Virus record (IMG/VR): IMGVR_UViG_3300042691_014437
Coordinates: 1-36,323 of that record
DNA: 36,323 bases
DNA from: a virus
Strand: one strand, 5' to 3'
Under the pieces are notes generated by a model, which worked only from the letters and a program-made list of their open reading frames with translations, was not told the origin of the DNA and did no database searches. Position 1 is the first letter of the stretch. Each line of letters starts with the position of its first letter. The translations under genes and the position numbers were made by a program. Positions 7,243 through 36,323 of this stretch are shown one piece after another.

Positions 7243-7656
7243 TTAGGCTGTTGCACGACTTACAGTTCCGCTGGTCGGCCAGGTAACTGAAAGTGTTGCA
7301 ATGTCCCCAACGGATGCTGAGAACGGTTGGTACTGTGAAACCAAGCATACAGCAGTCCAAGCAGGGTTAGTTGCAGACACGGCTGAGCTTGTAGGTGTTA
7401 CAACAACAGTAGCGTATGAGCCAGCGTTGAATAGTGGAGTGATCGTTGCATCAACAGATGCTGCTCCGAAGTCCTGGAAGAAGTTTAGAGTTACAGATCC
7501 AGACTTCAAGCCTTGGATACGAGTTCTCCAACCGCCACCGAAAGCTGTTGTTTCAATTTCATCTGAGCTGATGTCAAGGCTTACACTCTGGAGAACATTT
7601 GAAAGGTTTGTTCCGTTGAGCGTAATCTTGTGGTCAGTTGCTGCGTAAACCGCCAT
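7243..7656 (-). CDS. major tail protein (137 aa)
   Basis: A short beta-rich protein with the features of a siphovirus tail-tube subunit: N-terminal strand with KITLNGTNLSNVLQSVSLDIS, a Gly-rich loop (TTAFGGGWRTRIQGL), then SGSVTLNFFQDF and a C-terminal strand with SVTWPTSGTVSR. Position directly upstream of the tail chaperone supports this. ATG lies behind TAGGAG. It forms stacked hexameric rings of the tail tube. It is also a possible target of the glycosyltransferases encoded 1.5-3.8 kb upstream. Confidence 0.88.
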   Translation of the reverse strand: MAVYAATDHKITLNGTNLSNVLQSVSLDISSDEIETTAFGGGWRTRIQGLKSGSVTLNFFQDFGAASVDATITPLFNAGSYATVVVTPTSSAVSATNPAWTAVCLVSQYQPFSASVGDIATLSVTWPTSGTVSRATA

Positions 7657-21647: not shown

Positions 21648-21723
21648 TTGTGTCCCTTTCTTTTGGTGGCGTTGTTGCCACTCTCTAATTATGCCCGAAA
21701 AGTGATCTCTAACCCCCGCAGCT

Positions 21724-21754
21724 TTATAACATTTATTTATTTATATCGTTATAA
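21724..21754. promoter_or_regulatory. inverted TTATAAC/GTTATAA pair in a leader
   Basis: ttataac (21724-21730) and gttataa (21748-21754) are exact inverted words 17 bases apart in a very AT-rich stretch. The gttataa word also occurs at 20510, at 25473 and at 25484 in other non-coding regions. Possible regulator sites or an RNA stem; not proved. Confidence 0.4.
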
Positions 21755-21819
21755 AAATGTTCTTGCTTTTTTGTTGCTTTTTTTGTATAAGCACACCGCC
21801 AGGAACTACTAAGCACAAA

Positions 21820-21848
21820 CTTATAACATTTTTTTAGTCTCTCGTCAA
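21820..21848 (-). promoter_or_regulatory. sigma70-type promoter TTGACG-17-TATAAG
   Basis: On the minus strand TTGACG (21848-21843), 17 bases, TATAAG (21825-21820): close to consensus at both boxes with ideal spacing. Transcription would start near 21813 and run through the 108-, 122- and 32-residue genes to the terminator at 20827. The -35 box is the end of a 22-base word shared with the promoter at 31062-31091. Confidence 0.8.
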
Positions 21849-21865
21849 TAGCAAAACGCCAGAAA
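21844..21865 (-). repeat. promoter-upstream element, copy 1
   Basis: The minus-strand word CTGGCGTTTTGCTATTGAC (with three T in front) matches the copy at 31087-31108 at 21 of 22 positions. It spans the -35 box and 17 bases upstream, so it is a candidate activator or repressor site common to two promoters. Confidence 0.75.
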
Positions 21866-21930
21866 ACTTTTTTTCTTTTTTTGGCGTGTGTTGGCTTTTT
21901 CATATGGTAGAGATATACGAGATACGCCAG

Positions 21931-21960
21931 AGACCCCTAACCTATTTGGGCTAGGGGTCT
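21931..21960. terminator. perfect hairpin between two transcription units
   Basis: agacccctA (21931-21939) pairs fully with taggggtct (21952-21960) around a 12-base loop. No T run follows on either strand, so it is an atypical terminator or a processing/stability structure at the end of the 25.4-22.1 kb operon. Confidence 0.5.
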
Positions 21961-21997
21961 AGGGTGTAAGTTGTGATCTGCTTGGGGCTACCAAAGC

Positions 21998-22112
21998 TCA
22001 ACCAGATTATTCAACCAAATTTTGACCAAATTTTGACCAAATTTTTCAACCGAATTTTGATCAAATTTCAACCGAATTATTCAACCGAATTTTGACCAGA
22101 ATTTGACCAAAT
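21998..22112. repeat. phased array of ten (T)(C/G)A(C/T)C words with a 35-bp super-period
   Basis: Ten copies of (c/g)a(c/t)c in an AT-rich setting (typical unit tcaaccgaatttt or tttgaccaaatttt). The conserved A(C/T)C starts at 22001, 22014, 22025, 22036, 22049, 22060, 22071, 22084, 22095 and 22106. The spacings are 13, 11, 11 repeated exactly three times, so there is a 35-bp repeat built of three helical-turn-phased subunits. It lies directly after the stop of the 77-residue gene. Confidence 0.92.
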
Positions 22113-22346
22113 TTATTCGTGCGGCAGATGACCAGAATTAGCGAAACTATCGCAATCCCACTCACCATACATAGCTTTACGAATAGACAACACTCCAACT
22201 GGATATTGTTCTCTAATTCTGTCCTTTGCTTGTGTAATGTTATCAGCAAAGATCAAGCCCGTATTTTCTCCAAATGTGAAGAAACCAACCGAACCGATAC
22301 CGAACCAATAGTAGTTCTCTCCGTCAATGTAATCTATGTCTAACAT
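22113..22346 (-). CDS. hypothetical acidic protein (77 aa)
   Basis: ATG behind AAAGGG, overlapping the preceding stop as TAATG. Aromatic and acidic: DIDYIDGENYYWFGIGSVGFF, then a helix ITQAKDRIREQY and a C-terminal part with one Cys. Last gene of the 25.4-22.1 kb operon, followed by the repeat array. No family is recognised. Confidence 0.78.
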   Translation of the reverse strand: MLDIDYIDGENYYWFGIGSVGFFTFGENTGLIFADNITQAKDRIREQYPVGVLSIRKAMYGEWDCDSFANSGHLPHE

Positions 22347-22630
22347 TATTTTCCCTTTTCTTCTAGAATTAGCCCTTTTTGAACTAGTAATGACCAGATG
22401 TCGCTTTCTTCTATTTCAGGATAAATCCTTGATAACAACCAAGCGGAATTAGCAAAGCGATCCCAAGTTTTTTCATCTTCTTTTAGTTTTGAAGCTTCAT
22501 ACTTTTTTCTCGCTTTTTCATTTAGTTTTTCTACTCTAACTAGAACCCGATCTGTTTCTTCATCATAATAATATTGCGGATAGCAAGTTTCACAATCCCC
22601 CCTATCGCATTTTTCATTATCTTTTTTCAT
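22346..22630 (-). CDS. hypothetical protein with N-terminal Cys cluster (94 aa)
   Basis: Three cysteines near the start (KCDRGDCETC, C-x4-C-x2-C) suggest a metal site or disulfide. A charged helical region (VEKLNEKARKKYEASKLKEDEK) and the sequence SAWLLSRIYPEIEESDIW follow. TAATG overlaps at both ends. No family is recognised. Confidence 0.78.
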   Translation of the reverse strand: MKKDNEKCDRGDCETCYPQYYYDEETDRVLVRVEKLNEKARKKYEASKLKEDEKTWDRFANSAWLLSRIYPEIEESDIWSLLVQKGLILEEKGK

Positions 22631-22764
22631 TAGCTTCTCCCTTTCAACGCATCTTTGATAGAACTACTCATAAGTGATATGCCGCAAGTAAGTATCGCCA
22701 CAAAAATTATAAGTATGACCATACCCACATTACCGCTTACATTTTTTTCTGTATCTTCATTCAT
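22630..22764 (-). CDS. small single-TM protein (44 aa)
   Basis: A 44-residue frame with TAATG overlaps at both ends. A polar N-terminus (MNEDTEKNVSGN) precedes one membrane helix (VGMVILIIFVAILTCGISLM) and a short basic end. The overlaps on both sides support it strongly. No family is recognised. Confidence 0.78.
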   Translation of the reverse strand: MNEDTEKNVSGNVGMVILIIFVAILTCGISLMSSSIKDALKGRS

Positions 22765-23156
22765 TATTCAACACTCTCTAACTCTCTTAGTTCATCACAA
22801 TTTTCTAAAGCTACTTGAGCTAATTCACTTATGTTTGTCCATTCGCTTTCTTTAGCGTGTATCTTTTTCCAGAAAGTATGGGCAGATCTTACTTTAGGAA
22901 CGTCTCCCTGTTCGGTGTAATCGCCCAGGACAAACACTCTGTCCCCTGCCCATCTACCTAAGAAAGCTTCGTTGTATTCTGTAAGCGAGAAATCACCGAA
23001 ACCCCTAGCCCTAGAACAAGTAGTAAGTAAGTATTGAACTAGCGGCAGATCACCCATAAACCCACAATGTTCTAATTGCTTAGCCCCGAAACCGAGATCT
23101 CTAGGGTTTATGTATTCTTTCTTATCGCTATTCACTAACAGATGATATTGCCCCAT
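22764..23156 (-). CDS. conserved hypothetical protein, MGQYHxLVN family (130 aa)
   Basis: It opens with MGQYHLLVNSDKKEYINPRDLG and continues with GFGDF and GRWAGDRVFVLGDYTEQGD. This pattern is known from proteins of actinomycetes and their phages whose function is not known; the match is from memory and not from a search. TAATG overlaps at both ends. It is the largest gene of this operon. Confidence 0.8.
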   Translation of the reverse strand: MGQYHLLVNSDKKEYINPRDLGFGAKQLEHCGFMGDLPLVQYLLTTCSRARGFGDFSLTEYNEAFLGRWAGDRVFVLGDYTEQGDVPKVRSAHTFWKKIHAKESEWTNISELAQVALENCDELRELESVE

Positions 23157-23437
23157 TAGTTTTTACCCCCTACAAAATACCAATCATTACGAGGTTGTTC
23201 CTTAGAGTGTTGCTCAATCGTTTCACCTGTATAAGCGGTAAGCCAGTAGAAAATGTTTTCATCAAAATTTATCCATTCTAAATCCTGACTTTCCAAAGCT
23301 TCATTCAAAGCTATTTCCTGTTCGGGTGTTTCCAAGATCCCGAACCTAGCGTAAAACGGCTCACTCTCTCCGTAATCACACTCATCAAGCCAAGCGATAA
23401 GGTATTTTTCAACCTTTATCTCATCTATAATTGCCAT
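23156..23437 (-). CDS. hypothetical acidic protein (93 aa)
   Basis: Very acidic, with an N-terminal helix (IIDEIKVEKYLIAWLDECDYG) and IALNEALESQDLEWINFDENIFYWLTAYTG. It starts directly after the TAA of the preceding gene and overlaps the next as TAATG. No family is recognised. Confidence 0.78.
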   Translation of the reverse strand: MAIIDEIKVEKYLIAWLDECDYGESEPFYARFGILETPEQEIALNEALESQDLEWINFDENIFYWLTAYTGETIEQHSKEQPRNDWYFVGGKN

Positions 23438-23689
23438 TTATTTTTCTTCCTTTTCTTCTATCATTTCTTCAAGATCACTAGCCAGGTCATAGCCCGTCTG
23501 GGTGAAATCCAAATGACCTTCAAGGGTTTCTTGTCCGTCTTTCACAAACTCTTCCCAAACACTATTTATGTTTTCTAAAGTGAAATCATTAGTTTCAATG
23601 AAATAGTTTTTATCCCAATACGCCACAATAATTTCATCATCTAAATCACTGCGTTTTAGCAGCTCTTCAATAAGTTCTCTAATCTTCAT
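23438..23689 (-). CDS. hypothetical acidic protein (83 aa)
   Basis: ATG at 23689 with AAGGGG upstream; an in-frame TTG at 23710 is less likely. It begins MKIRELIEELLKRSDLDDEIIVAYWD, a helix-strand pattern common in small phage proteins, and ends in EEMIEEKEEK. No family is recognised. Confidence 0.75.
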   Translation of the reverse strand: MKIRELIEELLKRSDLDDEIIVAYWDKNYFIETNDFTLENINSVWEEFVKDGQETLEGHLDFTQTGYDLASDLEEMIEEKEEK

Positions 23690-23694
23690 TTCTG

Positions 23695-23901
23695 TTAGCC
23701 CCTTCTCCAAGTTAGGTTTATGTGTTGCTTATTCCACCAGACACTATCCTTCAAATCTTCAAAAGTGTAAGTGGCATTAGTTTTTTCAGCGTGAGCTGCC
23801 CAAGATCTCTCTAGTTCTGCCCACATAGTTTCTTCACTATCCGCTACTAAGTAAAAGTCATAGTGGGCGGTAGCCAAGTGTGCGATATACATTTCTTCCA
23901 T
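23695..23901 (-). CDS. hypothetical small protein (68 aa)
   Basis: ATG at 23901. A strand HYDFYLVADSEETMWAELERSWAAH pattern suggests a small beta-alpha fold. It contains WWNKQHINLTW near the end. No family is recognised. Confidence 0.75.
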   Translation of the reverse strand: MEEMYIAHLATAHYDFYLVADSEETMWAELERSWAAHAEKTNATYTFEDLKDSVWWNKQHINLTWRRG

Positions 23902-23903
23902 TT

Positions 23904-24080
23904 TTATTCTCCCTTTAGTTCATAAGTAATGTTTCCGTCAAGATACTCAATGTTTTCTTCGCCAATAAAATCTGGCAATTCTGGGTTGCTGTATTGCTCT
24001 GTAATTTGCTCTCTAACCTTGTGTAGATCTTTGATATCTACTAGGTAGCGGGCTTGAATAGTTATTTCGTATTTTGCCAT
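23904..24080 (-). CDS. hypothetical small protein (58 aa)
   Basis: ATG at 24080 overlaps the preceding TAA as TAATG; an upstream TTG at 24113 is unlikely. The pattern YEITIQARYLVDIKDLHKVREQI (strand then helix), with an acidic end, recalls the other small beta-alpha proteins of this operon, notably the 49- and 60-residue ones. Confidence 0.75.
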   Translation of the reverse strand: MAKYEITIQARYLVDIKDLHKVREQITEQYSNPELPDFIGEENIEYLDGNITYELKGE

Positions 24081-24229
24081 TAGTTTTTTCCCTTTTCTTC
24101 TGTTGTAAAACAATTTTCTTCAATGAAAATGTGGAGCTCTTCAAAAGCATTTCCATAAGCGATCATTGTGTTAGCGGCTTGTAGTTGTCTATAAATTTCC
24201 AGTAGTTCCCAGGTCTGTTGCTTAGTCAT
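24080..24229 (-). CDS. hypothetical helical protein (49 aa)
   Basis: TAATG overlaps at both ends. Nearly all helical: KQQTWELLEIYRQLQAANTMI and AFEELHIFIEENCF. No family is recognised; the double coupling supports it. Confidence 0.75.
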   Translation of the reverse strand: MTKQQTWELLEIYRQLQAANTMIAYGNAFEELHIFIEENCFTTEEKGKN

Positions 24230-24330
24230 TAGTTATCCTTATCTTCATTAGGGCAGACACAATCGGCAGGGTATCTTTGTAGGCATTGTTCGCATTGTGT
24301 TCCACAAGCGACACATAAACAATCACTCAT
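24229..24330 (-). CDS. Cys-rich microprotein (33 aa)
   Basis: Eight cysteines in 33 residues: C-x-C-x2-C-x3-C-x2-C in SDCLCVACGTQCEQC, then C-x-C in DCVCP. It probably binds one zinc or an iron-sulfur cluster. TAATG overlaps at both ends. No family is recognised. Confidence 0.72.
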   Translation of the reverse strand: MSDCLCVACGTQCEQCLQRYPADCVCPNEDKDN

Positions 24331-24557
24331 TAGTTCTCCCCTTTTTCAATAAACTCCCAGAATTCGTTGAAAGCATTTTCGGTATAGTCATTCGCTAGGT
24401 GTTGGTAATAGTTTTGGTGTTCAATGAACTTAGACCATAACTCTCTGGTTGCCCCGTCTACGCTTTCAAGATCTTCGTATCGTAGTGTCTGCCAAATAAG
24501 TTCTGTATCTGGCTCGTAAGTTTCGGTTAGAAACTCTATTAGTGTATCTCTAGTCAT
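24330..24557 (-). CDS. hypothetical acidic protein (75 aa)
   Basis: TAATG overlap with the following gene. Helical and acidic: DTLIEFLTETYEPDTELIW, TRELWSKFIEHQNYYQHLAND, EFWEFIEKGEN. No family is recognised. Confidence 0.75.
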   Translation of the reverse strand: MTRDTLIEFLTETYEPDTELIWQTLRYEDLESVDGATRELWSKFIEHQNYYQHLANDYTENAFNEFWEFIEKGEN

Positions 24558-24578
24558 TTTCCCTTTTTCCTTTTCCTT

Positions 24579-24710
24579 CTACTCGTTTTCCATGTGTAAA
24601 GCTAATTGGTTATAAATAGGAAGCAAAATAGCGTAATATTCGTTATCCGCTTTTTCGCCAAGCAATTCAAGTAATACCTCAACTTGAAAATCTGTAAGTG
24701 TTATTTTCAT
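24579..24710 (-). CDS. hypothetical small protein (43 aa)
   Basis: ATG at 24710 behind AAAAGGG, TAG at 24579. A single helix pair: ITLTDFQVEVLLELLGEKA and YYAILLPIYNQLALH. No family is recognised. Confidence 0.65.
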   Translation of the reverse strand: MKITLTDFQVEVLLELLGEKADNEYYAILLPIYNQLALHMENE

Positions 24711-24724
24711 TTTCCCTTTTCCCT

Positions 24725-24874
24725 TTATTTTGCTAATCTAACAGAACGAACCGCAACTAACGGAGCTTTCTCTAAATCACACGCCAACTTTATAGCGTGA
24801 TCTGTGTCTTTGGCGGCAACTATGATACTTACATATCCCGTGTCGTGTTTTAGGCGAACTTTATAGTTAGGCAT
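24725..24874 (-). CDS. hypothetical small protein (49 aa)
   Basis: ATG at 24874 overlaps the end of the preceding gene by 8 bases; TAA at 24725. Beta-alpha-beta pattern: YKVRLKHDTGYVSIIVAAKDTDHAIKLACD then VAVRSVRLAK. It resembles the 60-, 58- and 63-residue neighbours in layout, so local gene duplication is possible. Confidence 0.72.
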   Translation of the reverse strand: MPNYKVRLKHDTGYVSIIVAAKDTDHAIKLACDLEKAPLVAVRSVRLAK

Positions 24875-25049
24875 TTATACGCCCCATAATCTCTAAAGTA
24901 ATTTCGTGCCTAAGATCATCACAATCAAAGCCAGCATATTCCAAAATCTTTTCCTTAGCGTATTTTTCCGCTAGTTCATCATCTTCAGCATAAACGCCAG
25001 TAGTGATAGTGAAATAATCGGTAGAGATACTTACAGAATAATCAAACAT
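24867..25049 (-). CDS. hypothetical small protein (60 aa)
   Basis: ATG at 25049 overlaps the preceding TAA as TAATG. Two strands, then a helix and a strand: YSVSISTDYFTITTGVYAEDDELAEKYAKEKI. Similar layout to several neighbours. No family is recognised. Confidence 0.75.
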   Translation of the reverse strand: MFDYSVSISTDYFTITTGVYAEDDELAEKYAKEKILEYAGFDCDDLRHEITLEIMGRINA

Positions 25050-25240
25050 TAGTTTCCTTCCTTTGTCTCGGTTGGTTCTTCCCAATCTATTTCGCCGCCC
25101 TTGAAGAACTTTTCGCCATTAGGCAGATCTTCGTGTGATAAGAACTCACTCATAAGTTCCTTAGCGTGTTCCAAACTATCCGCTTGAAAAGTAATTATGT
25201 TTCTGGTGTATTCGTGTTCTACAAACTGATACTTAGGCAT
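25049..25240 (-). CDS. hypothetical small protein (63 aa)
   Basis: TAATG overlaps at both ends. Strand-helix pattern YTRNIITFQADSLEHAKELMSEFLSH, then an acidic end with IDWEEPTE. No family is recognised. Confidence 0.75.
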   Translation of the reverse strand: MPKYQFVEHEYTRNIITFQADSLEHAKELMSEFLSHEDLPNGEKFFKGGEIDWEEPTETKEGN

Positions 25241-25386
25241 TACTTTTCTCCCTTTACATAGCTCTTGAATAGTTGTGTTGCTTCTTTCTTACTATAAAAG
25301 TAAAAAACCTTTTTATAGTATTCATTTCCAATAAAAGTTGAAAGAACCCAAGCCCCTTCACTATTACGATCATAAATTATTTCCAT
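25240..25386 (-). CDS. hypothetical small protein (48 aa)
   Basis: First gene of the 25.4-22.1 kb operon. ATG at 25386 behind AAAGGG; TAATG overlap with the next gene. Pattern MEIIYDRNSEGAWVLSTFIG and a helix SKKEATQLFKSYVKG. No family is recognised. Confidence 0.75.
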   Translation of the reverse strand: MEIIYDRNSEGAWVLSTFIGNEYYKKVFYFYSKKEATQLFKSYVKGEK

Positions 25387-25471
25387 TTATTTCCCTTTGT
25401 TTAGGTAGCCGCTGTTGGCTACAAGAAAAGAATAAGCCCCCAGGACACAAAAACAAGATCATTTTTGGTTT

Positions 25472-25491
25472 CGTTATAAATCCGTTATAAA
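25472..25491. repeat. cgttataaa direct repeat, 11-bp period
   Basis: cgttataaa at 25472-25480 and 25483-25491, one helical turn apart. The same word occurs at 20509 and near-copies at 21747. A candidate regulator site upstream of the small-gene operon. Confidence 0.55.
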
Positions 25492-25495
25492 CGCC

Positions 25496-25526
25496 AAAAA
25501 CCCCTAGCGGACAAAGACTAGGGGTT
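25496..25526 (-). terminator. intrinsic terminator
   Basis: Minus-strand AACCCCTAG pairs perfectly with CTAGGGGTT around a 10-base loop, followed by more T then GGCG. It ends the 27.0-25.6 kb transcript. Confidence 0.88.
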
Positions 25527-25554
25527 TCAGCAAGCTACTTGGTGTCGGGTATCA

Positions 25555-25618
25555 CAACCGAACTTACAACCAAATAACCAAAAGTGATACAACCAAATAC
25601 TAACCAAATTTCAACCGA
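25555..25618. repeat. loose array of AACC(A/G)AA words
   Basis: Six ACC cores at 25557, 25569, 25577, 25592, 25603 and 25614 in an A-rich setting; the last three are 11 bases apart. It follows a gene stop and precedes a terminator, the same arrangement as the array at 21998-22112. Confidence 0.75.
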
Positions 25619-25621
25619 AAA

Positions 25622-25954
25622 TCAAGTCAGCGGCTTATTACCCCGTTTCTCATTACAACTCTTATGAGCAGGAAGCAAGATCGCAGTAGAACCAAAATCG
25701 CCAGGATTAGCGTGATCAGCAACCCAAGGATCGTCAAACCTACCGCCACCACCGCACAAATGGCATACCAAAGCAGTTTCACGAACCAATTTTGCTCTTT
25801 TACGATAATCACCTGAGTATTGTCCTGTCTGTTTCTTTACGGCAGCTCGCTTGGCGTTATGTAGCCCTTGAACCAAATTTTCGTGTATATCACACCGATT
25901 ACCGCCAGTAGTAAGCTCACCGCAATCCAGGCAAGGTTTAGGAAACCTACCCAT
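25622..25954 (-). CDS. HNH endonuclease (110 aa)
   Basis: The HNH fold is visible: C64-x2-C67 (CHLC), the catalytic D80-H81 in WVADHANPG, H97-x2-C100 and N101 in LLPAHKSCNEKRGN. An additional N-terminal zinc pair CLDCGE with C21-x2-H24 is present. In many phages such a protein assists terminase cutting, although this one lies 6 kb from terminase. It could also be a free-standing homing or anti-host nuclease. Confidence 0.88.
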   Translation of the reverse strand: MGRFPKPCLDCGELTTGGNRCDIHENLVQGLHNAKRAAVKKQTGQYSGDYRKRAKLVRETALVCHLCGGGGRFDDPWVADHANPGDFGSTAILLPAHKSCNEKRGNKPLT

Positions 25955-26108
25955 TATGTTTCTCGCAATGAGCTATAGCCTGATCTTCTGTGTCATACTT
26001 GTCCCAACAATTTTCAACCGAATTATTGAAGAAACCGAATATTAGAACCAAAATTCCTATAACCAGAATTCCGTTTATTACAACCAAAACTTTTTCAAAC
26101 AATCTCAT
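25947..26108 (-). CDS. small single-TM protein (53 aa)
   Basis: ATG at 26108 overlaps the NlpC/P60 stop (ATGA) and the end overlaps the HNH start by 8 bases. One long membrane helix (VLVVINGILVIGILVLIFGFF) is followed by a charged tail with two Cys (ENCWDKYDTEDQAIAHC). It may partner with the secreted hydrolase upstream. No family is recognised. Confidence 0.75.
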   Translation of the reverse strand: MRLFEKVLVVINGILVIGILVLIFGFFNNSVENCWDKYDTEDQAIAHCEKHNG

Positions 26109-26626
26109 TTTATTATCCTTACAAACCGAATTTGGCTTTTACTGAAATCTGTGAGCAACTGAATTTTTGTTGTCCCAAACATCAAATTAGCGTTGATAAT
26201 CTTATTATTCCCTAGATAGATAGCCGAATGATAAAAACTTGTTGAACCAGGATAAGCAAAAACAACTACGTCTCCTACTCTCGCTTTAGAAACACGCTTA
26301 CCTATGTGAGCTTGCTTATCTGCCGAGTGAGGTAGCGTAATGCCGATCTTCTTGTAAGTCCATACAACCAAACCAGAACAATCCCAACCAGAAGGTTTTG
26401 AACCAGAAAAGACGTATGGTGTCTTATCTGCGAACCGAACCAAATTATTGGTTATTTGAACCAAATGTTTACGTTTTTGAACCAAATGTTTCTGTTTATC
26501 TAAATCCAGAAAGTATTGAACTGGATTATTGGTTTGTAGGTGTGTAGTGCGGTCAGTTGAACCGAAACTTGCCCAACCGCCAACCAAAACCATGAACGCT
26601 GACAAAACTAAAACTAAATACTTCAT
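26105..26626 (-). CDS. secreted NlpC/P60 cysteine peptidase (173 aa)
   Basis: Residues 1-21 are a signal peptide or N-terminal membrane anchor. The C-terminal NlpC/P60 domain has the nucleophile C83 in WDCSGLVVWTYKK, H133 in FYHSAIYLG and a third polar residue in KIINAN. Such enzymes cut peptidoglycan stem peptides. The linker has a seven-residue repeat (HLVQKRK, HLVQITN, NLVRFAD). It lies in the early region, far from tail and lysis genes. A role in wall remodelling or blocking a second infection is possible. Confidence 0.88.
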   Translation of the reverse strand: MKYLVLVLSAFMVLVGGWASFGSTDRTTHLQTNNPVQYFLDLDKQKHLVQKRKHLVQITNNLVRFADKTPYVFSGSKPSGWDCSGLVVWTYKKIGITLPHSADKQAHIGKRVSKARVGDVVVFAYPGSTSFYHSAIYLGNNKIINANLMFGTTKIQLLTDFSKSQIRFVRIIK

Positions 26627-26640
26627 TTTCCCTTTCCATC

Positions 26641-26811
26641 CTAATCTTTACCCCATCCAGTCCCCTTGAACTGAATTGACGGGCTACCAAATAGTCTAAC
26701 CAAAACTTCTTTACATTGTTTACATTTTGTAGGTGGTTTATGTGTGTTATTTATAGGCTCAGTAATAATAAACTTATGTCCATTTTTACATTCGTATTCA
26801 TAAACTGGCAT
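26641..26811 (-). CDS. FmdB-type zinc ribbon protein (56 aa)
   Basis: The opening MPVYEYECKNGHKF, a Cys pair C30-x2-C33 and the ending SPSIQFKGTGWGKD match the FmdB family of short zinc ribbons, in which the C-terminal FKGSGW motif is conserved. Family members are proposed regulators. ATG at 26811 overlaps the preceding TAA as TAATG. The family match is strong; the role is not known. Confidence 0.85.
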   Translation of the reverse strand: MPVYEYECKNGHKFIITEPINNTHKPPTKCKQCKEVLVRLFGSPSIQFKGTGWGKD

Positions 26812-27017
26812 TATTCTTCCTCTTCGTTATAGGGATCGTAAATGGCTTGAAAGCCTAAAGCTATGTCTGTATTGCTAAGTACAACTGAATCTTTTGTTTC
26901 TTGTGTTGGTTGCTTTTCAGCGTGTTTATGTGTTCTACGCCAATTTTTAACCAAATCAACAGCATCTCTGTCATCAGTTTCAAATTCAGCACCACAGCTA
27001 CACACTTCACGGATCAT
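26811..27017 (-). CDS. small zinc-finger-like protein (68 aa)
   Basis: N-terminal C-x-C (CSCGAEFET) and H30-x-H32 (RRTHKHAE) suggest a zinc site. The C-terminal half is acidic and unstructured (DPYNEEEE). No ribosome-binding site is visible; TAGACT lies six bases before the ATG, so a leaderless message is possible. Confidence 0.78.
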   Translation of the reverse strand: MIREVCSCGAEFETDDRDAVDLVKNWRRTHKHAEKQPTQETKDSVVLSNTDIALGFQAIYDPYNEEEE

Positions 27018-27023
27018 AATGTA

Positions 27024-27029
27024 AGTCTA
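27024..27029 (-). promoter_or_regulatory. possible -10 box (TAGACT) of a leaderless gene
   Basis: TAGACT fits the actinobacterial TANNNT -10 pattern and ends 6 bases before the ATG at 27017, with no Shine-Dalgarno in between. The upstream terminator at 27034-27080 means this unit needs its own promoter. Confidence 0.4.
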
Positions 27030-27033
27030 AAGG

Positions 27034-27080
27034 AAAATCTCCTAGCAACAGGGCGTTTACATGCGTGGCTACTAGGAGAT
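27034..27080 (-). terminator. intrinsic terminator after the phosphoesterase gene
   Basis: Minus-strand ATCTCCTAG (27080-27072) pairs with CTAGGAGAT (27045-27037), followed by TTTTCC. The 26-base loop is long and has wobble pairs next to the main stem. Confidence 0.75.
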
Positions 27081-27102
27081 CCTCTTTAATCTACCAGAAA
27101 GT

Positions 27103-28275
27103 CTAAAGTTTCCAAACTGTTCCAGTAAAATCTTTCTCTTTCTCTAATGCAAAACAAACCAAACCAGGCTGGCTGTCTTCACCGCTATTGAGTCTCCACC
27201 AGTTAGATCCGTTGTCTAGGGTTGCAGCTTGAACCCAGAAACGTGATGTTCCCCTGCTTGTTGAACCAAGTTCTTGAACTCTAAGATGATGAAAATGACC
27301 AGAAACCAGAACTGTTGAAGCGGTTACAGGTTGCTTACCAAACGATTGTTTACGCCACCAGTCAGGGATACCTTCAGGTCTATTGGCTTGATGTCCATGT
27401 ACCATACCGAGAACATGGTAGGAATCACCGAATACATCTAGAGCCAATGATTCGTCATGGGTTGAAGGCTCGTGGAAAGTTATGTCAAGTCCAACTTCTT
27501 TACTTAACCGAGCAAGCGTACGCCCAATGTGAATACCCCAATCATCTGTAGGAGTACCAACCTTTTGTTTGTTCACTCGGAACTGACAATGATTACTTCC
27601 AACCGAAAGGTAAGTTATAGGAGCGTACTTAGCGAGTTGCTTTAAAGTTTCCCACGCCATTGCAGTACTTACGTCAACCTGCTGCATGAGCGACATTGAA
27701 TTTGTGGCGAGCTGGTGAAGATCTGCGACATTTCCAAAGTTCTCAATAGTATCACCAACATCACAGAAAATAATGCGTTCAGGTTTTGTTTCTTTTACCT
27801 TGTTTATTAGCCTGACCTGTGTTTCAGCGATACGCATAAACATAGCTTCAGTACCGCCCCTATGGTCTACCTTACCTACCTGTAGATCTGACCAAAGAAC
27901 AACCAAAGCTTTACCCGAAACAACTGGTTTAGGTGTAACAGATTTGGTTTTCTTAGCTAACGCATAAAGCAAAGGCAGATCTAAAGCAGCGTTCTTCCTA
28001 CGCCACCTAATCCTGACTGCTGTATGCCATGCAGGTTCAAGTGGAAAAGGTCGTGCAACCTGCCAGCGACTAATTCTAGGCTCACCAACAATGTCAATCT
28101 CATCAGGATTAATTCCTGCATCACGCAAAAAACCGTCAATGTCTACAGGGTTATCGCCTTCAACGGCAGGAAGAGTAGCTTCCCCACCTTCACCATCAAA
28201 CACGACTGATGGATTCCAGCCTTCAGGGGCTTGCACTTTAGGTGCAGGTGTAACTAAATTCTCCAACATGAGCAT
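27103..28275 (-). CDS. metallophosphoesterase (390 aa)
   Basis: Calcineurin-like phosphoesterase motifs in order: SDLQVGKVDH (metal ligands), CDVGDTIEN (GDxx), VGSNHC (GNH-type), GMVHGHQ and VSGHFHHLR (GHxH). The N-terminal 100 residues include a Trp/Arg-rich segment (RWQVARPFPLEPAWHTAVRIRWRRK) that may bind nucleic acid. Such proteins are frequent in actinophages and may act as nucleases or phosphatases. ATG at 28275 or 28269; the start overlaps the HTH gene. Confidence 0.88.
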   Translation of the reverse strand: MLMLENLVTPAPKVQAPEGWNPSVVFDGEGGEATLPAVEGDNPVDIDGFLRDAGINPDEIDIVGEPRISRWQVARPFPLEPAWHTAVRIRWRRKNAALDLPLLYALAKKTKSVTPKPVVSGKALVVLWSDLQVGKVDHRGGTEAMFMRIAETQVRLINKVKETKPERIIFCDVGDTIENFGNVADLHQLATNSMSLMQQVDVSTAMAWETLKQLAKYAPITYLSVGSNHCQFRVNKQKVGTPTDDWGIHIGRTLARLSKEVGLDITFHEPSTHDESLALDVFGDSYHVLGMVHGHQANRPEGIPDWWRKQSFGKQPVTASTVLVSGHFHHLRVQELGSTSRGTSRFWVQAATLDNGSNWWRLNSGEDSQPGLVCFALEKEKDFTGTVWKL

Positions 28276-28478
28276 CTCTTCCTTGCATGGCTATCAACTG
28301 AATAGCGACTGATTTTTAAACCACGTTCATTTAGAGCAGTTGTAAGAGCAGAATTGTTCCACAAAGGAGATTCTAACGCTTCAATCAGTATTTTTCTGTC
28401 TTTTTCTTCAAGGTTTTGAAGAATAGTGTTGATTTTGCAGGGATACTGCCTGGATGTCGGAGCTATGTTTTCAAGCAT
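28254..28478 (-). CDS. small helix-turn-helix-like protein with C-terminal Cys motif (74 aa)
   Basis: The sequence LWNNSALTTALNERGLKISRYSVDSHARKRCSC has the shape of a helix-turn-helix followed by a basic Cys motif, typical of a small actinophage family found next to phosphoesterase genes. It probably binds DNA. It overlaps neighbours at both ends by 8 and 22 bases. Confidence 0.75.
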   Translation of the reverse strand: MLENIAPTSRQYPCKINTILQNLEEKDRKILIEALESPLWNNSALTTALNERGLKISRYSVDSHARKRCSCWRI

Positions 28479-28674
28479 TGGGTTTCTCCAATAAAACTGG
28501 GCTAGAGATGCTAAAACATAACTCTCGGATAGTAGCGAGAATAACTGGATGAGTCATTGTGTTAGCTTCTTCAATAACATCCGCTATTTTGTGGCGAACC
28601 AAATCAAAGTCGCTAGACCAAAGTAGGTTATCATCTCTCAACAGTTTTACTGTGTCTTGCACTTTGTTACTCAT
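28471..28674 (-). CDS. hypothetical small protein (67 aa)
   Basis: ATG behind AAGGAG. All-helical and slightly acidic: VQDTVKLLRDDNLLW, FDLVRHKIADVIEEANTM, ILATIRELCFSI. No family is recognised. Confidence 0.75.
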   Translation of the reverse strand: MSNKVQDTVKLLRDDNLLWSSDFDLVRHKIADVIEEANTMTHPVILATIRELCFSISSPVLLEKPNA

Positions 28675-28801
28675 CTAAATCTCCTTCATCATTGTATGGG
28701 TCTTTTACTTCTATTTGTTGTGCCACAAAGAAAATTGCTACATAGCCGATACTTAGCATTACTACTGCAAGTATCACAACCGAAACTATTAACTCCACCA
28801 T
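28667..28801 (-). CDS. small single-TM protein (44 aa)
   Basis: ATG at 28801 with AGAAGAG upstream; overlaps the previous gene by 13 bases and the next by 8. One N-terminal membrane helix (LIVSVVILAVVMLSIGYVAIFFV) and an acidic tail (DPYNDEGDLDE). No family is recognised. Confidence 0.7.
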   Translation of the reverse strand: MVELIVSVVILAVVMLSIGYVAIFFVAQQIEVKDPYNDEGDLDE

Positions 28802-29124
28802 TGTTTCTCTTCTACTAGGTTTGAGTTCCAAACACGAATAGGTCTGGCATGTGAGACTGCACGTTTAGAAGCAATAAAACTATCTGACGGTTTTATGTGT
28901 CCAATTTTGCTGGCATTTCTAAACATTGCCCCCATAGCTGCAGGTTGATGGGTTTGTATTTCAGGATAATTTTTTAGTTCATCCCAAACATCATCAGACG
29001 TAAAATGATCTAGCCTATTGGCAAGTTGACCAATAATTTTTGTGACCAGATCAGTCCAAGCCTTATTAGCGTTATCTTCAACCTGTTCAAGAGCTTCATC
29101 TCTTAGTTGTGTAGCAGTTTTCAT
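28789..29124 (-). CDS. conserved phage protein, winged-helix-like (111 aa)
   Basis: The pattern EALEQVEDNANKAW, then DHFTSDDVWDELKNYPEIQTH, AMGAMFRNASKIGHIKPS and SHARPIRVWNSN is familiar from small phage proteins of actinobacteria, where it looks like a winged-helix fold. The role is unknown. TAATG overlap with the methyltransferase stop. Confidence 0.72.
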   Translation of the reverse strand: MKTATQLRDEALEQVEDNANKAWTDLVTKIIGQLANRLDHFTSDDVWDELKNYPEIQTHQPAAMGAMFRNASKIGHIKPSDSFIASKRAVSHARPIRVWNSNLVEEKQWWS

Positions 29125-30002
29125 TAGTTCCCTTTCAGTTCAATGTCTTGTAGCAATACTCTTAATGCTAGTTCTGCTTGTTGCGGAACAACACCATTGC
29201 CACATGCTTTTAATTGTTCATTTCGTGTCAACCCTATTTCTGGGTCTGTAACCCAACCAGCAGGAAGCCCCATCATCCATTCAGTAAACTCTGCTGACAG
29301 ACGGTGGTTACCGTCTTTGCCGTCAGGTTTAGTGGGTGCTGGTGCTGGTTGATTTATTGTTTGTTCCCATCTTCTGATGGCTGGCTCAAACTTACCCCAA
29401 TCAAGAGTAAGAACCTGTGTGTTTAGTGGCAAAGTATTTCTGTCAAATTGACTAGGGCCACCATTGTTTTTTGCATCTTGTGTTGTAGGTGTAGGAAGCA
29501 TCTCCATACGAACAGCAACTCCAAGGCTCACCCCAGGCATACCCTTAGTCTTGCCGTCAATGTAATCCTGTCTGCGTTCCAAATAGTTTTCTATCGGCTC
29601 ATCATGGTTACGAATGTGACCAACAGCAGGAGTAGGGAGCAAAGACATAGCAATACTGTCTGAAACCTTTAGACCATTCTCAAATGCTAACTGTGCCATC
29701 TGGTCAGCAGTCTTTACCATGCGACCACGATCACGGGCTTGAGTCTCACTAATAGCACCACCAGTAGAGTCTGTAACACTAGGTGTCCTAATTAATGCTT
29801 CGTCTGGGATAGGCAACAATGAAGACTCTAAATCGGTTGTGGGTAGCACCTGCATCAGCTGCTCGTATGCCACACCATTTTCCGTCATACCCCAAATCGG
29901 CCAAGTCTCCCAAAACACATCCGATTGCTCTGAGAAAAGGTTTTCCTGCGGGGATAACCAAATCTTCTTCTCCGTACTCCATACCGCTATTTGCTTCAGC
30001 AC
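29124..30002 (-). CDS. C5 methyltransferase C-terminal part (frame 2; GTG at 30002 or frameshift product)
   Basis: Open from 30002 (GTG, with AGGGG eight bases upstream but inside frame-1 coding sequence). The first 60 residues are the out-of-frame reading of motif VIII and look non-native; homology begins near PIPDEALIRTPSV. Ends with the ACGNGVVPQQAELAL motif. Independent translation is possible but less likely than a fusion. Confidence 0.65.
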   Translation of the reverse strand: MLKQIAVWSTEKKIWLSPQENLFSEQSDVFWETWPIWGMTENGVAYEQLMQVLPTTDLESSLLPIPDEALIRTPSVTDSTGGAISETQARDRGRMVKTADQMAQLAFENGLKVSDSIAMSLLPTPAVGHIRNHDEPIENYLERRQDYIDGKTKGMPGVSLGVAVRMEMLPTPTTQDAKNNGGPSQFDRNTLPLNTQVLTLDWGKFEPAIRRWEQTINQPAPAPTKPDGKDGNHRLSAEFTEWMMGLPAGWVTDPEIGLTRNEQLKACGNGVVPQQAELALRVLLQDIELKGN

Positions 30003-30354
30003 TTAAAATACCCCTAACATTTTCTATAACAACCAATTTAGGTTGCAACTCTTCAATAGCCCTAGCAAACTCTGACCATAGACCAGACCTAGTGCCTTCT
30101 TTCAAACCTGCTCTTTTACCTGCGATAGATAAATCTTGACAAGGAAAACCACCTGTAAGGACATCAACTTTTTCTACTTGTGTAAAATCAACTTTTGTTA
30201 CATCACGATAGTTTGGAACACCAGGAAAGTTGCGTTCAAGGATCTTTGATGGTGCATCATCCCATTCGCAATGCCAAGCAACTTCGCCACCAATAACAGC
30301 CGAAACTGCTAAATCTAAGCCACCATAACCAGAAAATAGACTTCCTATCTTCAT
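29124..30354 (-). CDS. C5 cytosine methyltransferase, full length if read through a +1 frame change (409 aa)
   Basis: Frame 1 (30354 to 29806) carries motif I FSGYGGLDLA, the catalytic PCQ at 71-73 (C72), ENV at 111-113 and the motif VIII-like THNRFRVFIVAYP. Frame 2 (29804 to 29124) carries the rest: variable region with LLPTPTTQDAKNNGG, then LTRNEQLKACGNGVVPQQAELAL, the C-terminal motif that completes the fold. Skipping A at 29805 after CCC joins them as AYP-DEALIRTPSV. It would methylate cytosine in phage DNA and protect it from restriction. Sequencing error, programmed +1 shift or a two-subunit enzyme are all possible. Confidence 0.8.
29788..30354 (-). CDS. C5 methyltransferase N-terminal (catalytic) part (188 aa)
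   Basis: The unshifted product. It holds AdoMet-binding motif I, catalytic PCQ and ENV but lacks the target-recognition region and the last motif, so it should be inactive alone. It ends RRSIN after a TAG at 29788. ATG at 30354 overlaps the end of the preceding small gene. Confidence 0.85.
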   Translation of the reverse strand: MKIGSLFSGYGGLDLAVSAVIGGEVAWHCEWDDAPSKILERNFPGVPNYRDVTKVDFTQVEKVDVLTGGFPCQDLSIAGKRAGLKEGTRSGLWSEFARAIEELQPKLVVIENVRGILSAEANSGMEYGEEDLVIPAGKPFLRAIGCVLGDLADLGYDGKWCGIRAADAGATHNRFRVFIVAYPRRSIN

Positions 30355-30533
30355 GTCAAACTCAAATCTTTGACTGACTGGATTACTTCTCTTTTATCTA
30401 CCTGTATTAGCTGCTTTTCGCCCATCCAAATAAATGGCAGTTTTTCTAGCATCTCTACAACCAAACTTTGTGTAGAGATCTGACCAGATAGTTTTCCTAC
30501 ATGGGCAAAGTTCTTATTGCACTTTTCACACAT
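30351..30533 (-). CDS. hypothetical small protein with Cys pair (60 aa)
   Basis: Begins MCEKCNKNFAHVG, a half zinc-finger. The rest is amphipathic. ATG at 30533 overlaps the preceding stop by eight bases and the end overlaps the methyltransferase start as ATGA. No family is recognised. Confidence 0.7.
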   Translation of the reverse strand: MCEKCNKNFAHVGKLSGQISTQSLVVEMLEKLPFIWMGEKQLIQVDKREVIQSVKDLSLT

Positions 30534-32268: not shown

Positions 32269-33084
32269 TTAGCCTTTTGCAACCTTACCAAAGTTACATT
32301 TACGGCAATTCCAAACAATCTTGTCATGCTCACAATGCTTAGGTGGGGCTAAAACAACCTTCTTTTCGTGTTCTAGGGCTTCAGCAGCACGAATACGATC
32401 TAACTCCCGTACACGTTGCACACGGGCTTCCTCAGCCATCCTCGCTTCATTCTGTAGCTCTTCCTTAGTTTTCTGTCTCTCAGGCAACGGAGCATCACCC
32501 CAACGATCACCATTCAACCAAGTAGTCGGATAAGGGATGAACTCTTGTGGTGGAAGATTCTTGTCGTGGGCATAGCGTACACAGCCAGCAAGAATGTCAT
32601 CAAAGCTTGCTCTCTGCAAAGCAGATTCAAAAGCTTTACACGCAGCTCGCTTAGAAACCTTACGAGGATAAACATTCCAGAATTCCTCAAAATGAGCATA
32701 TAGGTTAATATATGTTTCTTTTAAAGGTTTGTGTGCCAGATCTGTCACCCCTGACGTACCCAGTCTGTCACCCCTGCTTACCTGAGCTGTCACCCCTGCT
32801 TCCCAGTTTGTCACCCCTGGCAAAAGAATCCAATACTTATTTGTCTTGTATTGACCACCAAAATCAGAGCCATTAACTTCAACGCTAATCTCCCCGATTT
32901 CCTGAAGATACTGCAAATCTCTTTTGATTGATCTTTCACTAGCGTTAGCGTAACGAGCCAAAGTAGCGATAGACGGCCAAGCACCATTATCGCCATGATG
33001 GTTAGCGATACCAATTAGCACAAGCTTGGCTCGCCCATCAGCCCGACTGTTATTTAGGACAGCCGAAATCATCTCCACACTCAT
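32269..33084 (-). CDS. replication initiator with HTH domain and internal iterons (271 aa)
   Basis: Residues 1-75 form a winged helix-turn-helix (AVLNNSRADGRAKLVLIGIANH then SIATLARYANASERSIKRDLQYLQEIGEISVE), as in phage replisome organisers. Residues 89-114 are an Arg/Gly-rich linker encoded by the iteron DNA. Then FEEFWNVYPRKVSKRAACKAFESAL and PYPTTWLNGDRWGD, a segment common in phage replication proteins. The last 25 residues have a zinc motif (C-x-H, C-x2-C). It probably binds the iterons and loads the host helicase. No helicase or polymerase gene is present, so host enzymes must be used. Confidence 0.87.
   Translation of the reverse strand: MSVEMISAVLNNSRADGRAKLVLIGIANHHGDNGAWPSIATLARYANASERSIKRDLQYLQEIGEISVEVNGSDFGGQYKTNKYWILLPGVTNWEAGVTAQVSRGDRLGTSGVTDLAHKPLKETYINLYAHFEEFWNVYPRKVSKRAACKAFESALQRASFDDILAGCVRYAHDKNLPPQEFIPYPTTWLNGDRWGDAPLPERQKTKEELQNEARMAEEARVQRVRELDRIRAAEALEHEKKVVLAPPKHCEHDKIVWNCRKCNFGKVAKG
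32690..32820. other. candidate replication origin: four iterons plus AT-rich stretch
   Basis: tgtcacccctg occurs exactly at 32743-32753, 32766-32776, 32788-32798 and 32809-32819, with starts 23, 22 and 21 bases apart, about two helical turns. The neighbouring 32697-32727 stretch is nearly all A and T (ttaatatatg). The copies are read in different frames of the initiator gene, so selection acts on DNA and not on protein. This is the arrangement of lambda-type origins, where the initiator gene contains its own binding sites. Confidence 0.85.
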
Positions 33085-33383: not shown

Positions 33384-33725
33384 TCAAGCCATAAATAATC
33401 GGTAAGGTGTCTTATTCCATTGATTATCAATCAGAAACCAGTCACCTTTATAAAAATCGTAAATCGGTGTTGCTTCAGGAAACTTGTATCGCTCAAGCTT
33501 CCAACCATACTGTAAAGCCTTCTCACGAAACTCTGCATTAGATTCCATCAACAAATTAGATTCACTACACATAGCCACCAGGTTAGATGGGGTGTCTAAT
33601 AACTTAGACCCGCCCATCCCCCGATTGACTCGGTGTTGCGGCACGAGCGTATCATCAATACGCCCACAATGCCAACAACACACGTCACGTTCAAGCACCT
33701 TAGCCCAAATAGTTTTACTAACCAT
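33384..33725 (-). CDS. HNH endonuclease-like protein (113 aa)
   Basis: C17-x2-C20 (CWHC), H31 in VPQHRVNRGMGGSK, and N48 in SNLVAMCSESNLLMESN give an HNH pattern with the typical histidine and asparagine. The C-terminus is a separate short domain (YDFYKGDWFLID). It may nick DNA during replication or recombination, or be a homing-type nuclease. Confidence 0.78.
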   Translation of the reverse strand: MVSKTIWAKVLERDVCCWHCGRIDDTLVPQHRVNRGMGGSKLLDTPSNLVAMCSESNLLMESNAEFREKALQYGWKLERYKFPEATPIYDFYKGDWFLIDNQWNKTPYRLFMA

Positions 33726-34056
33726 GACGGAACGTTAGCTCCACCTGTTTAGCAATAACTGCAGTCAAAGTACCCGCATCTGAGATCTGCTTTATCTTAG
33801 CCTTGACACGGTTCAACTCAACTTTTGCCATGTCATGCTCAAACTTTAGCTCAGCAGTCTTGAGACGAGCTACAGCAGTCCTATCGGCCACAGTCCCCTG
33901 GGCTTCAAGAAAAGCAGATTGAAACGCCTTTTCATAAACTAAATCTCTATCAGCAACTTTCATCTCAGCATCATAAAGAGCATTAACGCCCTTTTCGCCA
34001 GACTGGATTAGTTCATTTAGTTTGCCAATAATGTGGTCAGGACTAACTATTTCCAA
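33718..34056 (-). CDS. coiled-coil protein of the recombination block (112 aa)
   Basis: TTG at 34056 has GGGG-TAAAGAAC upstream; the frame is open to another TTG at 34077. The protein is mostly helical: HIIGKLNELIQSGEKGVNALYDAEM, then LKTAELKFEHDMAKVELNRVKAKI. No family is recognised. It lies directly after the ERF-like gene and may be its partner. Confidence 0.72.
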   Translation of the reverse strand: MEIVSPDHIIGKLNELIQSGEKGVNALYDAEMKVADRDLVYEKAFQSAFLEAQGTVADRTAVARLKTAELKFEHDMAKVELNRVKAKIKQISDAGTLTAVIAKQVELTFRHG

Positions 34057-34531
34057 GTTCTTTACCCCACTTAACAATCAGATCTAACTTATCTTTTGAC
34101 AACTTAGCTTGTTGAGCTTCAAGATACAAAGCCTTCAACTTGGCTAAATCTTTTTTGGAATAAGCATCATTAGCCTGAGCATAAATGTCCTCAGCAGCAC
34201 GATTTACTTTATCCATCTCTTGTGCTGAAGGTCGCTTACCCTTTGGGCTAAACTCTCCACCGAGAGCCGAAATTGCTCTTCCATAGGCCGAGGTAGCACA
34301 GTTCTCTACAAAAGACACCTTGTTTATGTGGCTAGTGCCTAAACGCTCTTCAGCGTAATCAACCGCAGCTGGCTTTTCATCAGCCTTGTCTAAGAACACT
34401 TCAGCCTTCATAACGACCTGTGTTTCGTTGATTAGAACGATCTCTAAGTTCAAGCGACCGTTGCCGTACCTAGCCCAGAACAGGTCAATTCTCTCCTGGA
34501 CAGTTTGATATTGTGAAAGGTCAAAGGCCAT
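34043..34531 (-). CDS. ERF/Sak-like single-strand annealing protein (162 aa)
   Basis: ATG at 34531 overlaps the preceding TAA as TAATG. LFWARYGNGRLNLEIVLINETQVVMKAEV, then the motif VENCATSAYGRAISALGG, which corresponds to the ETSA-GRALA-LG pattern of phage recombination annealing proteins. With the YqaJ nuclease two genes upstream it would form a two-component recombination system. The exact superfamily is uncertain. Confidence 0.72.
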   Translation of the reverse strand: MAFDLSQYQTVQERIDLFWARYGNGRLNLEIVLINETQVVMKAEVFLDKADEKPAAVDYAEERLGTSHINKVSFVENCATSAYGRAISALGGEFSPKGKRPSAQEMDKVNRAAEDIYAQANDAYSKKDLAKLKALYLEAQQAKLSKDKLDLIVKWGKELGNS

Positions 34532-36208: not shown

Positions 36209-36323
36209 TATTTGCCTTTGTTTTCTAGGATGTGCTTCAACGGGTCAACTAAATCTTTATAGGCAGCTAGATGAATGTCAGGGTTGCTAAAGTTTTTGTT
36301 AGCCTTACCGATACTCATGTGTA
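36208..36323 (-). CDS. M23 endolysin, C-terminal end (second half of the gene cut at base 1)
   Basis: The frame enters from base 36323 and ends KDLVDPLKHILENKGK at TAA 36208-36210. It joins in frame with the 138-residue part at 1-415 when the contig is circularised (the first 66 bases are duplicated here). The joined protein is 154 residues long. Confidence 0.92.
   Translation of the reverse strand, partial: HMSIGKANKNFSNPDIHLAAYKDLVDPLKHILENKGK
36258..36323. repeat. terminal direct repeat, right copy (circle overlap)
   Basis: Exact repeat of bases 1-66. See the left copy. Confidence 0.95.

Follow-up and report, generated by a model that had tools for sequence, protein, structure and literature searches.

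What acts on a run of short, regularly spaced words at the junction between the early and late genes of a phage is the question raised by this locus. The window, by which we mean the whole 36,323-nt stretch of virus record IMGVR_UViG_3300042691_014437 that was analysed, carries ten A(C/T)C words, the first at 22001, in steps of 13, 11 and 11 repeated three times (array 1; Table 1). A preliminary description had reported this layout, and when the sequence was read and re-parsed it proved to be exactly so. On the plus strand the units are written ACCRRA; in order they are ACCAGATTATTCA, ACCAAATTTTG, ACCAAATTTTG, ACCAAATTTTTCA and ACCGAATTTTG in the first half and ATCAAATTTCA, ACCGAATTATTCA, ACCGAATTTTG, ACCAGAATTTG and ACCAAATTT in the second, with a weak eleventh word, ACCAAAGCTC, at 21990, 11 bp to the left of the array. 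TRF gave a period of 35 with 3.3 copies, 81% matches and a score of 164, which is the top score of the window. Stepping by 11 or 13, the A(C/T)C words form a chain 11 long, whereas the longest chain was 5 in 3,000 dinucleotide-shuffled copies of the segment and 4 in 30 shuffled copies of the entire window. Shuffling never produced such a chain, and array 1 is genuine.

The same description took the 13-11-11 spacing as a rule kept exactly, with the units one helical turn apart, and neither point held. Since the three 35-bp blocks of array 1 are 80–86% identical to each other in pairwise comparison, the super-period looks like an old block duplication, and it is best read as a local 35-bp duplication that has since diverged. 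Because steps of 13 bp and 15 bp shift the face of the helix, a distance of one turn does not hold for every pair of neighbouring units. Contig L006 is 99.9% identical to the window; in L007, the nearest relative whose array is at the corresponding place and whose version of the 77-aa protein next to it is 68% identical, ten units occupy the same 105 bp in total with spacings of 11, 12 and 13, and the arrays of most other relatives have a plain spacing of 11.

The window has a 66-bp terminal direct repeat (1–66 and 36258–36323), which suggests that the assembly is circular and complete; in the related contig G008 the terminal direct repeat is 127 bp long. The contigs G001 and G002 share a start site some 80 bp ahead of terS, which resembles a cos end. 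The WhiB gene of the window phage and its large terminase, which has 58% identity with the terminase of Pontimonas phage phiPsal1, make an actinobacterial host likely. In the simple open-reading-frame calls used for the window, all confident genes except WhiB lie on the minus strand. Along the direction of transcription, recombination and replication genes (36–30 kb) come first; next are the genes for an exonuclease and a cell-wall hydrolase, the HNH gene and some small genes, and the terminase and virion genes come last, from 20 kb to 0. Array 1 sits at this early-to-late junction and is followed by a strong hairpin, the 120-nt stretch after the array having a fold z of −5.4. The HNH gene that adjoins array 2 also precedes an array in several distant relatives (G003, G011, G012 and G006). 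Within the early region, a DNA methyltransferase at 29124–30354 is split over the overlapping frames 29788–30354 and 29124–30002, representing either two genes or a programmed frameshift; relatives of both halves occur in the same related phages.

Table 1. Features of the window that bear on the arrays and their surroundings.
Feature	Position	Strand	Remarks
Array 1	21998..22112	-	ten TYYGGTY-type units, spacing 13-11-11 three times; directly 3' of the stop codon of the 77-aa gene
77-aa gene, no family assigned	22113..22346	-	stop codon adjoins array 1; relatives in eight contigs
GC-rich hairpin, 12 bp	21931..21960	-	downstream of array 1; terminator-like, without a long U run
Non-coding region from array 1 to the next gene	21648..21997		similar in L007; early-to-late junction
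Array 2	25555..25621	-	six TYYGGTY-type units, spacing 11, 11, 15, 8, 12; 3 nt past the HNH stop codon
HNH endonuclease-like gene	25622..25954	-	stop codon adjoins array 2
Terminator-like hairpin (AAACCCCTAG..CTAGGGGTTT)	25498..25527	-	downstream of array 2; z of the stretch −2.6
Unit cluster in NlpC/P60-type cell-wall hydrolase gene	26366..26489	-	partly a 21-bp repeat
Early-operon stretch	22000..30500	-	37 of 41 minus-strand TYYGGTYR sites, coding and non-coding; only 3 to its left (late region)
Adjacent HNH-like (113-aa) and 119-aa genes	33384..34077	-	119-aa product without assigned function

Read on the transcribed strand, the unit is the 7-mer TYYGGTY, and this unit is shared by related phages. 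Contigs G001–G012 were gathered by scans with a neighbouring protein and with array patterns and, except for the unrelated G005, each of them contains one to three arrays built from it. These arrays comprise 4–11 units, mostly 11 apart and sometimes 13 or 15. All of the approximately 20 arrays are on the gene strand, and most start 1–10 nt past the stop codon that ends an early operon, upstream of the next operon. A 17-nt pair pattern gave 45 matches, on one strand per contig throughout, and its reversed control gave 0. The spacing of array 2 is kept within one base in L007, L010/L011 and L137. According to the preliminary description, finding relatives with the same gene order and no array would have meant a slippage product; the relatives with matching gene order do carry arrays, at the same place, and its view of a genuine repeated recognition element is borne out.

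These comparisons also bear on a neutral or selfish tandem repeat, produced by slippage and block duplication without function, which they disfavour and which we consider very improbable. The 35-bp blocks do look duplicated, G003 likewise has a three-unit super-period, and in L010 and L011 a perfect, fresh 18-bp array adjoins the older array. However, slippage cannot keep ten units and 105 bp in L007, nor can it scatter a 7-mer over differing codon positions in non-repetitive early genes at frequencies above those of synonymous shuffles, as found in six divergent genomes.

Outside these phages, no array was found among 50,697 cultured phage records. The array pattern had only one match in 394 Actinomycetes genomes, on a contig of 70% GC, in another context and unrelated in appearance, and Rfam covariance models at gathering thresholds had no match in the window. 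A GGTCA-at-11 pattern was also run on viral and genome collections; it was too loose and returned mostly unrelated repeats, with only L072, L129, L137 and L144, besides the known loci, truly belonging to the array family. The 12-bp repeats of L019 and L047 were set aside as well, being origin-type iterons inside a replication gene. As the preliminary description had supposed of standard phage features, no described phage element was matched here, and the arrays are a real, apparently undescribed signal and not a one-off repeat.

The consensus over 135 array units is AATYYGGTYRNA, in which T, GG and T are nearly invariant (the two G in 130 and 134 units) and three positions are freely C or T. 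The array units show the same specificity as a logo obtained from coding sequences alone. When one position of the word was mutated at a time in coding sequences, T1, G4, G5 and T6 were fixed, while at positions 2, 3 and 7 C and T were about equally enriched (2.2–2.9-fold) and other bases stood at 0.7–1.3-fold. This logo cannot be explained by array duplication because it derives from non-repetitive coding sequence. In the early coding sequences of eleven genomes, TYYGGTYR was present 183 times, compared with 57.5 ± 7.0 expected from synonymous-codon shuffles, whereas in their late coding sequences it was not enriched (58 versus 65.2 ± 5.9), the pooled z-scores and significance being inflated by the relatedness of the genomes. 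The 7-mer TYYGGTY itself was enriched about 2–3-fold over such shuffles in early coding sequences. The ranks within each genome are free of this inflation and are safer. As a control for having chosen the word after seeing it, a separate ranking of approximately 2,040 patterns built in the same way was made for each genome; TYYGGTY came 1st in the window, G001 and G011, 4th in G003, 5th in G004 and 20th in G002, and it ranked 475th–1789th in late regions (the window, G001 and G003) and in array-less phages.

Outside the arrays, TYYGGTYR occurs almost solely on the gene strand and almost solely in the early region; in the window, 24 sites are in coding sequences and 17 are non-coding. The word is densest near the 3' end of the first early operon, and its density resets past the HNH array; beyond the last array the word is absent as a signal, with 12 sense versus 25 antisense sites in 29 kb. 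The exonuclease genes of array-type phages mostly have 4–7 sense and 0–1 antisense sites, in more distant array-type phages partly at other codons, whereas those of array-less relatives, 75–84% identical in protein, have 0–2 sites. The exception is G010, with an exonuclease gene that lacks sites, and is perhaps newly acquired, yet with 13 sites in the downstream region. The word is not enriched in sister phages, and among the sequences compared it tracks the phage clade; the phages that carry it are actinobacteria-type, freshwater actinophages. Within the unit cluster of the hydrolase gene, a 21-bp repeat at 26437–26489 carries TYYGGTY and encodes HLVQ repeats in the hydrolase linker, and the word may have shaped the protein.

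An oriented word that becomes denser towards one end of a linear genome recalls Chi, a short, G/T-containing word whose polarity is established. A Chi-like, DNA-end or packaging signal would steer a host helicase-nuclease or the packaging motor; the word lies on one strand, its density increases towards the right, cos-side arm, its orientation suits an enzyme entering from the right end, and G001 and G002 start just before terS in a cos-like manner. Nevertheless, we regard this as very improbable. The word stops at the last array, 1–4 kb before the end is reached, and several genomes have few copies of it in the preceding operon. It is degenerate, tandem and tied to stop codons, unlike Chi, and there is no reason for Chi to be placed in tandem 3 nt after stop codons. 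In addition, in sampled small actinobacterial genomes (40–49% GC, ~1.2–1.4 Mb), which are host-like, it is not enriched (52 versus 49.4 ± 6.2).

Since about half of the 120-nt stretches after arrays fold much more stably than their shuffled versions, with z as low as −7, the arrays appear to lie inside the transcribed unit; those of G001, G002, G003, G008 and G011 have no convincing downstream hairpin. The position after stop codons and before hairpins, the strand lock, the confinement to early units and the reset at unit ends together tie the word to transcription units, and its spread through early coding sequences indicates a role at the level of the transcription unit or of the RNA. We favour, at a probability of about 0.4, the explanation that array 1 is one copy of a family of elements marking the ends of transcription units, with the word being read on RNA by a putative factor that would govern what becomes of the 3' end. 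Early transcripts of the clade would carry UYYGGUY scattered through their coding part and, in the ribosome-free interval that separates the last stop codon from the terminator, packed as tandem arrays. A trans-acting factor, protein or RNP and most likely phage-encoded, would bind the word on RNA, with avidity at the arrays. Its binding could then decide between termination and read-through into the next operon, or between decay and protection of the early mRNA. RNA as the form that is read, multivalent binding at the arrays and the effect of that binding are what we infer beyond the observed word.

A more tentative version takes UYYGGUY in reading frames together with the arrays in 3' untranslated regions as one distributed RNA code, addressed to an RNA-binding protein or a guide RNA to which the two pyrimidines are equivalent at three positions, and timing the early-to-late switch or the fate of the mRNA, with selection for the code having reshaped synonymous sites across the early operon. 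RNA and DNA polarity are inseparable here because all of the genes concerned run one way, and no opposite-strand early genes were informative on this point. Array RNAs often fold better than shuffles. Self-pairing of units, GGUY with itself through G-U wobbles, was considered and rejected, as unit positions 4 and 9 do not covary and CGGUCA is common. A search for phage RNA able to pair with the word (GACCGGA and similar) likewise gave no conserved candidate.

In a comparison of the gene content of motif-bearing and other genomes, no gene was found whose presence follows the word exactly. Each of the ten motif-bearing genomes that include an early region has the pair of adjacent genes at 33384–34077, which in the window span 33384–33725 and 33718–34077. 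G013–G015 lack this pair, and it is also present in the array-less phiPsal1. Apart from the tape-measure gene, these two are the only genes found in array-type genomes but not in G013–G015. In terms of gene content, the pair and the tape-measure gene would be the only leads to the putative reading factor.

If the transcripts are read, Rho has to be considered as the reader, with the array as a ribosome-free loading site that offers a regularly spaced pyrimidine dinucleotide in most units. The arrays immediately follow stop codons and precede the next transcription unit; each array unit has strict pyrimidines, and the units recur every 11–15 nt. The rut sites of E. coli Rho, however, are C-rich and G-poor, whereas in the arrays GG is the least variable part and C is freely swapped for T; enrichment within translated genes is also unexpected for Rho, and we think its involvement very unlikely.

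The main rival to reading on RNA is a DNA-level one, in which a phage DNA-binding protein would occupy oriented sites throughout the early region, cooperatively at the arrays, and block or tune RNA polymerase at operon ends in the manner of stoperators. The stoperators of cluster A mycobacteriophages are asymmetric 13-bp sites, 23–36 per genome, mainly intergenic or at gene ends and in one orientation relative to transcription (PMC3029335). Like those of L5 and Bxb1, the sites described here are short, asymmetric and one-way and number dozens per genome (PMC3029335); the arrays also stand at gene ends, and most of the single sites are in coding sequence. Against the RNA reading, the dominant step of 11 bp is close to a helical turn and suits a DNA-bound protein. 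Known stoperators, in contrast, are predominantly single intergenic sites, whereas the word here is a 7-mer with three free pyrimidines that is also enriched in coding sequences and stands in tandem after stop codons. The spacings of 13 and 15 break the helical phase, and no integrase or repressor family, including the CI type, was found among the 30 window proteins scanned with PHROGs. We hold this DNA-level explanation to be doubtful, though far less so than the other alternatives to reading on RNA.

Besides stoperators, the nearest described elements are the start-associated sequences of cluster K mycobacteriophages, the two kinds having in common that they are short, dispersed and oriented phage signals. 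These sequences (SAS/ESAS) are single, non-palindromic 13-bp copies located 3–7 bp before start codons, with no function assigned (PMC3203893). They resemble the word in being short and non-palindromic, confined to the right, non-structural half of the genome and a few nucleotides from translation signals (PMC3203893), and they differ from it in that the arrays follow stop codons and the word, itself a different one, recurs in coding sequence. Because it forms arrays after stop codons, admits either pyrimidine at three positions and also occurs within coding sequences, the array signal is taken as a variant related to stoperators and SAS.

A replication origin and a partition or centromere-like site were both proposed in the preliminary description. 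In their overall arrangement, direct repeats of about 11 bp are similar to iterons, and parC-type 11-bp direct repeats, as in plasmid R1, are bound by ParR, with tandem spacing similar to that of the arrays. However, array 1 is 10 kb from the O-like replication gene, which contains iterons of its own of approximately 22 bp (CAGGGGTGACAGACTGG-like, 3.8 copies, at 32736–32819, also conserved in relatives); these are likely the replication origin. As for partition, each genome has several arrays at operon ends, tied to stop codons and strand-locked to the direction of transcription, unlike parC, and no par family was seen among those early-region proteins that were scanned. Iterons or a parC-like centromere are the least probable of the explanations considered. 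The origin, partition, Chi and Rho readings each fail on a feature that was tested, and the first three, like pure slippage, are less likely. What stands of the preliminary interpretation is the genuine recognition element, without the exact super-period, the origin or the centromere.

Should the favoured reading on RNA be correct, a widespread aquatic phage group would have an undescribed genome-wide regulatory word, the specificity of which can be read from coding sequences alone. The word would provide a clean handle for fishing out the phage (or host) regulator of early transcripts. Furthermore, the dispersed, oriented signals of phages, stoperators and SAS, would gain a third form, centred on stop codons and constraining codon choice as well.

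Some further regularities were observed in and around the arrays. In the window, G002, G003, G004, G011 and G012, spacings that deviate from 11 are almost all 13 or 15; 12 is rare and 14 does not occur. Units with GGTT, rather than GGTC, tend to precede the longer steps. This rule of odd spacings is plain by eye in the arrays but weak in coding sequence after exclusion of similar pairs (36 of 55 odd, p 0.03). The perfect 18-bp array of L010 and L011 (TCGACCAGCTCAGCCAGC, 6.7 copies, GC-rich; 7302–7419 and 7330–7447, respectively) directly follows a TYYGGTY array and is partly complementary to it (GACCAGC versus CTGGTC). In the window, a similar promoter-like stretch (TTATAACG...AAAAATGTTCTTG) is present after both arrays, at 21740–21800 and 25400–25470, on opposite strands, and the one beside array 1 would read towards the array.
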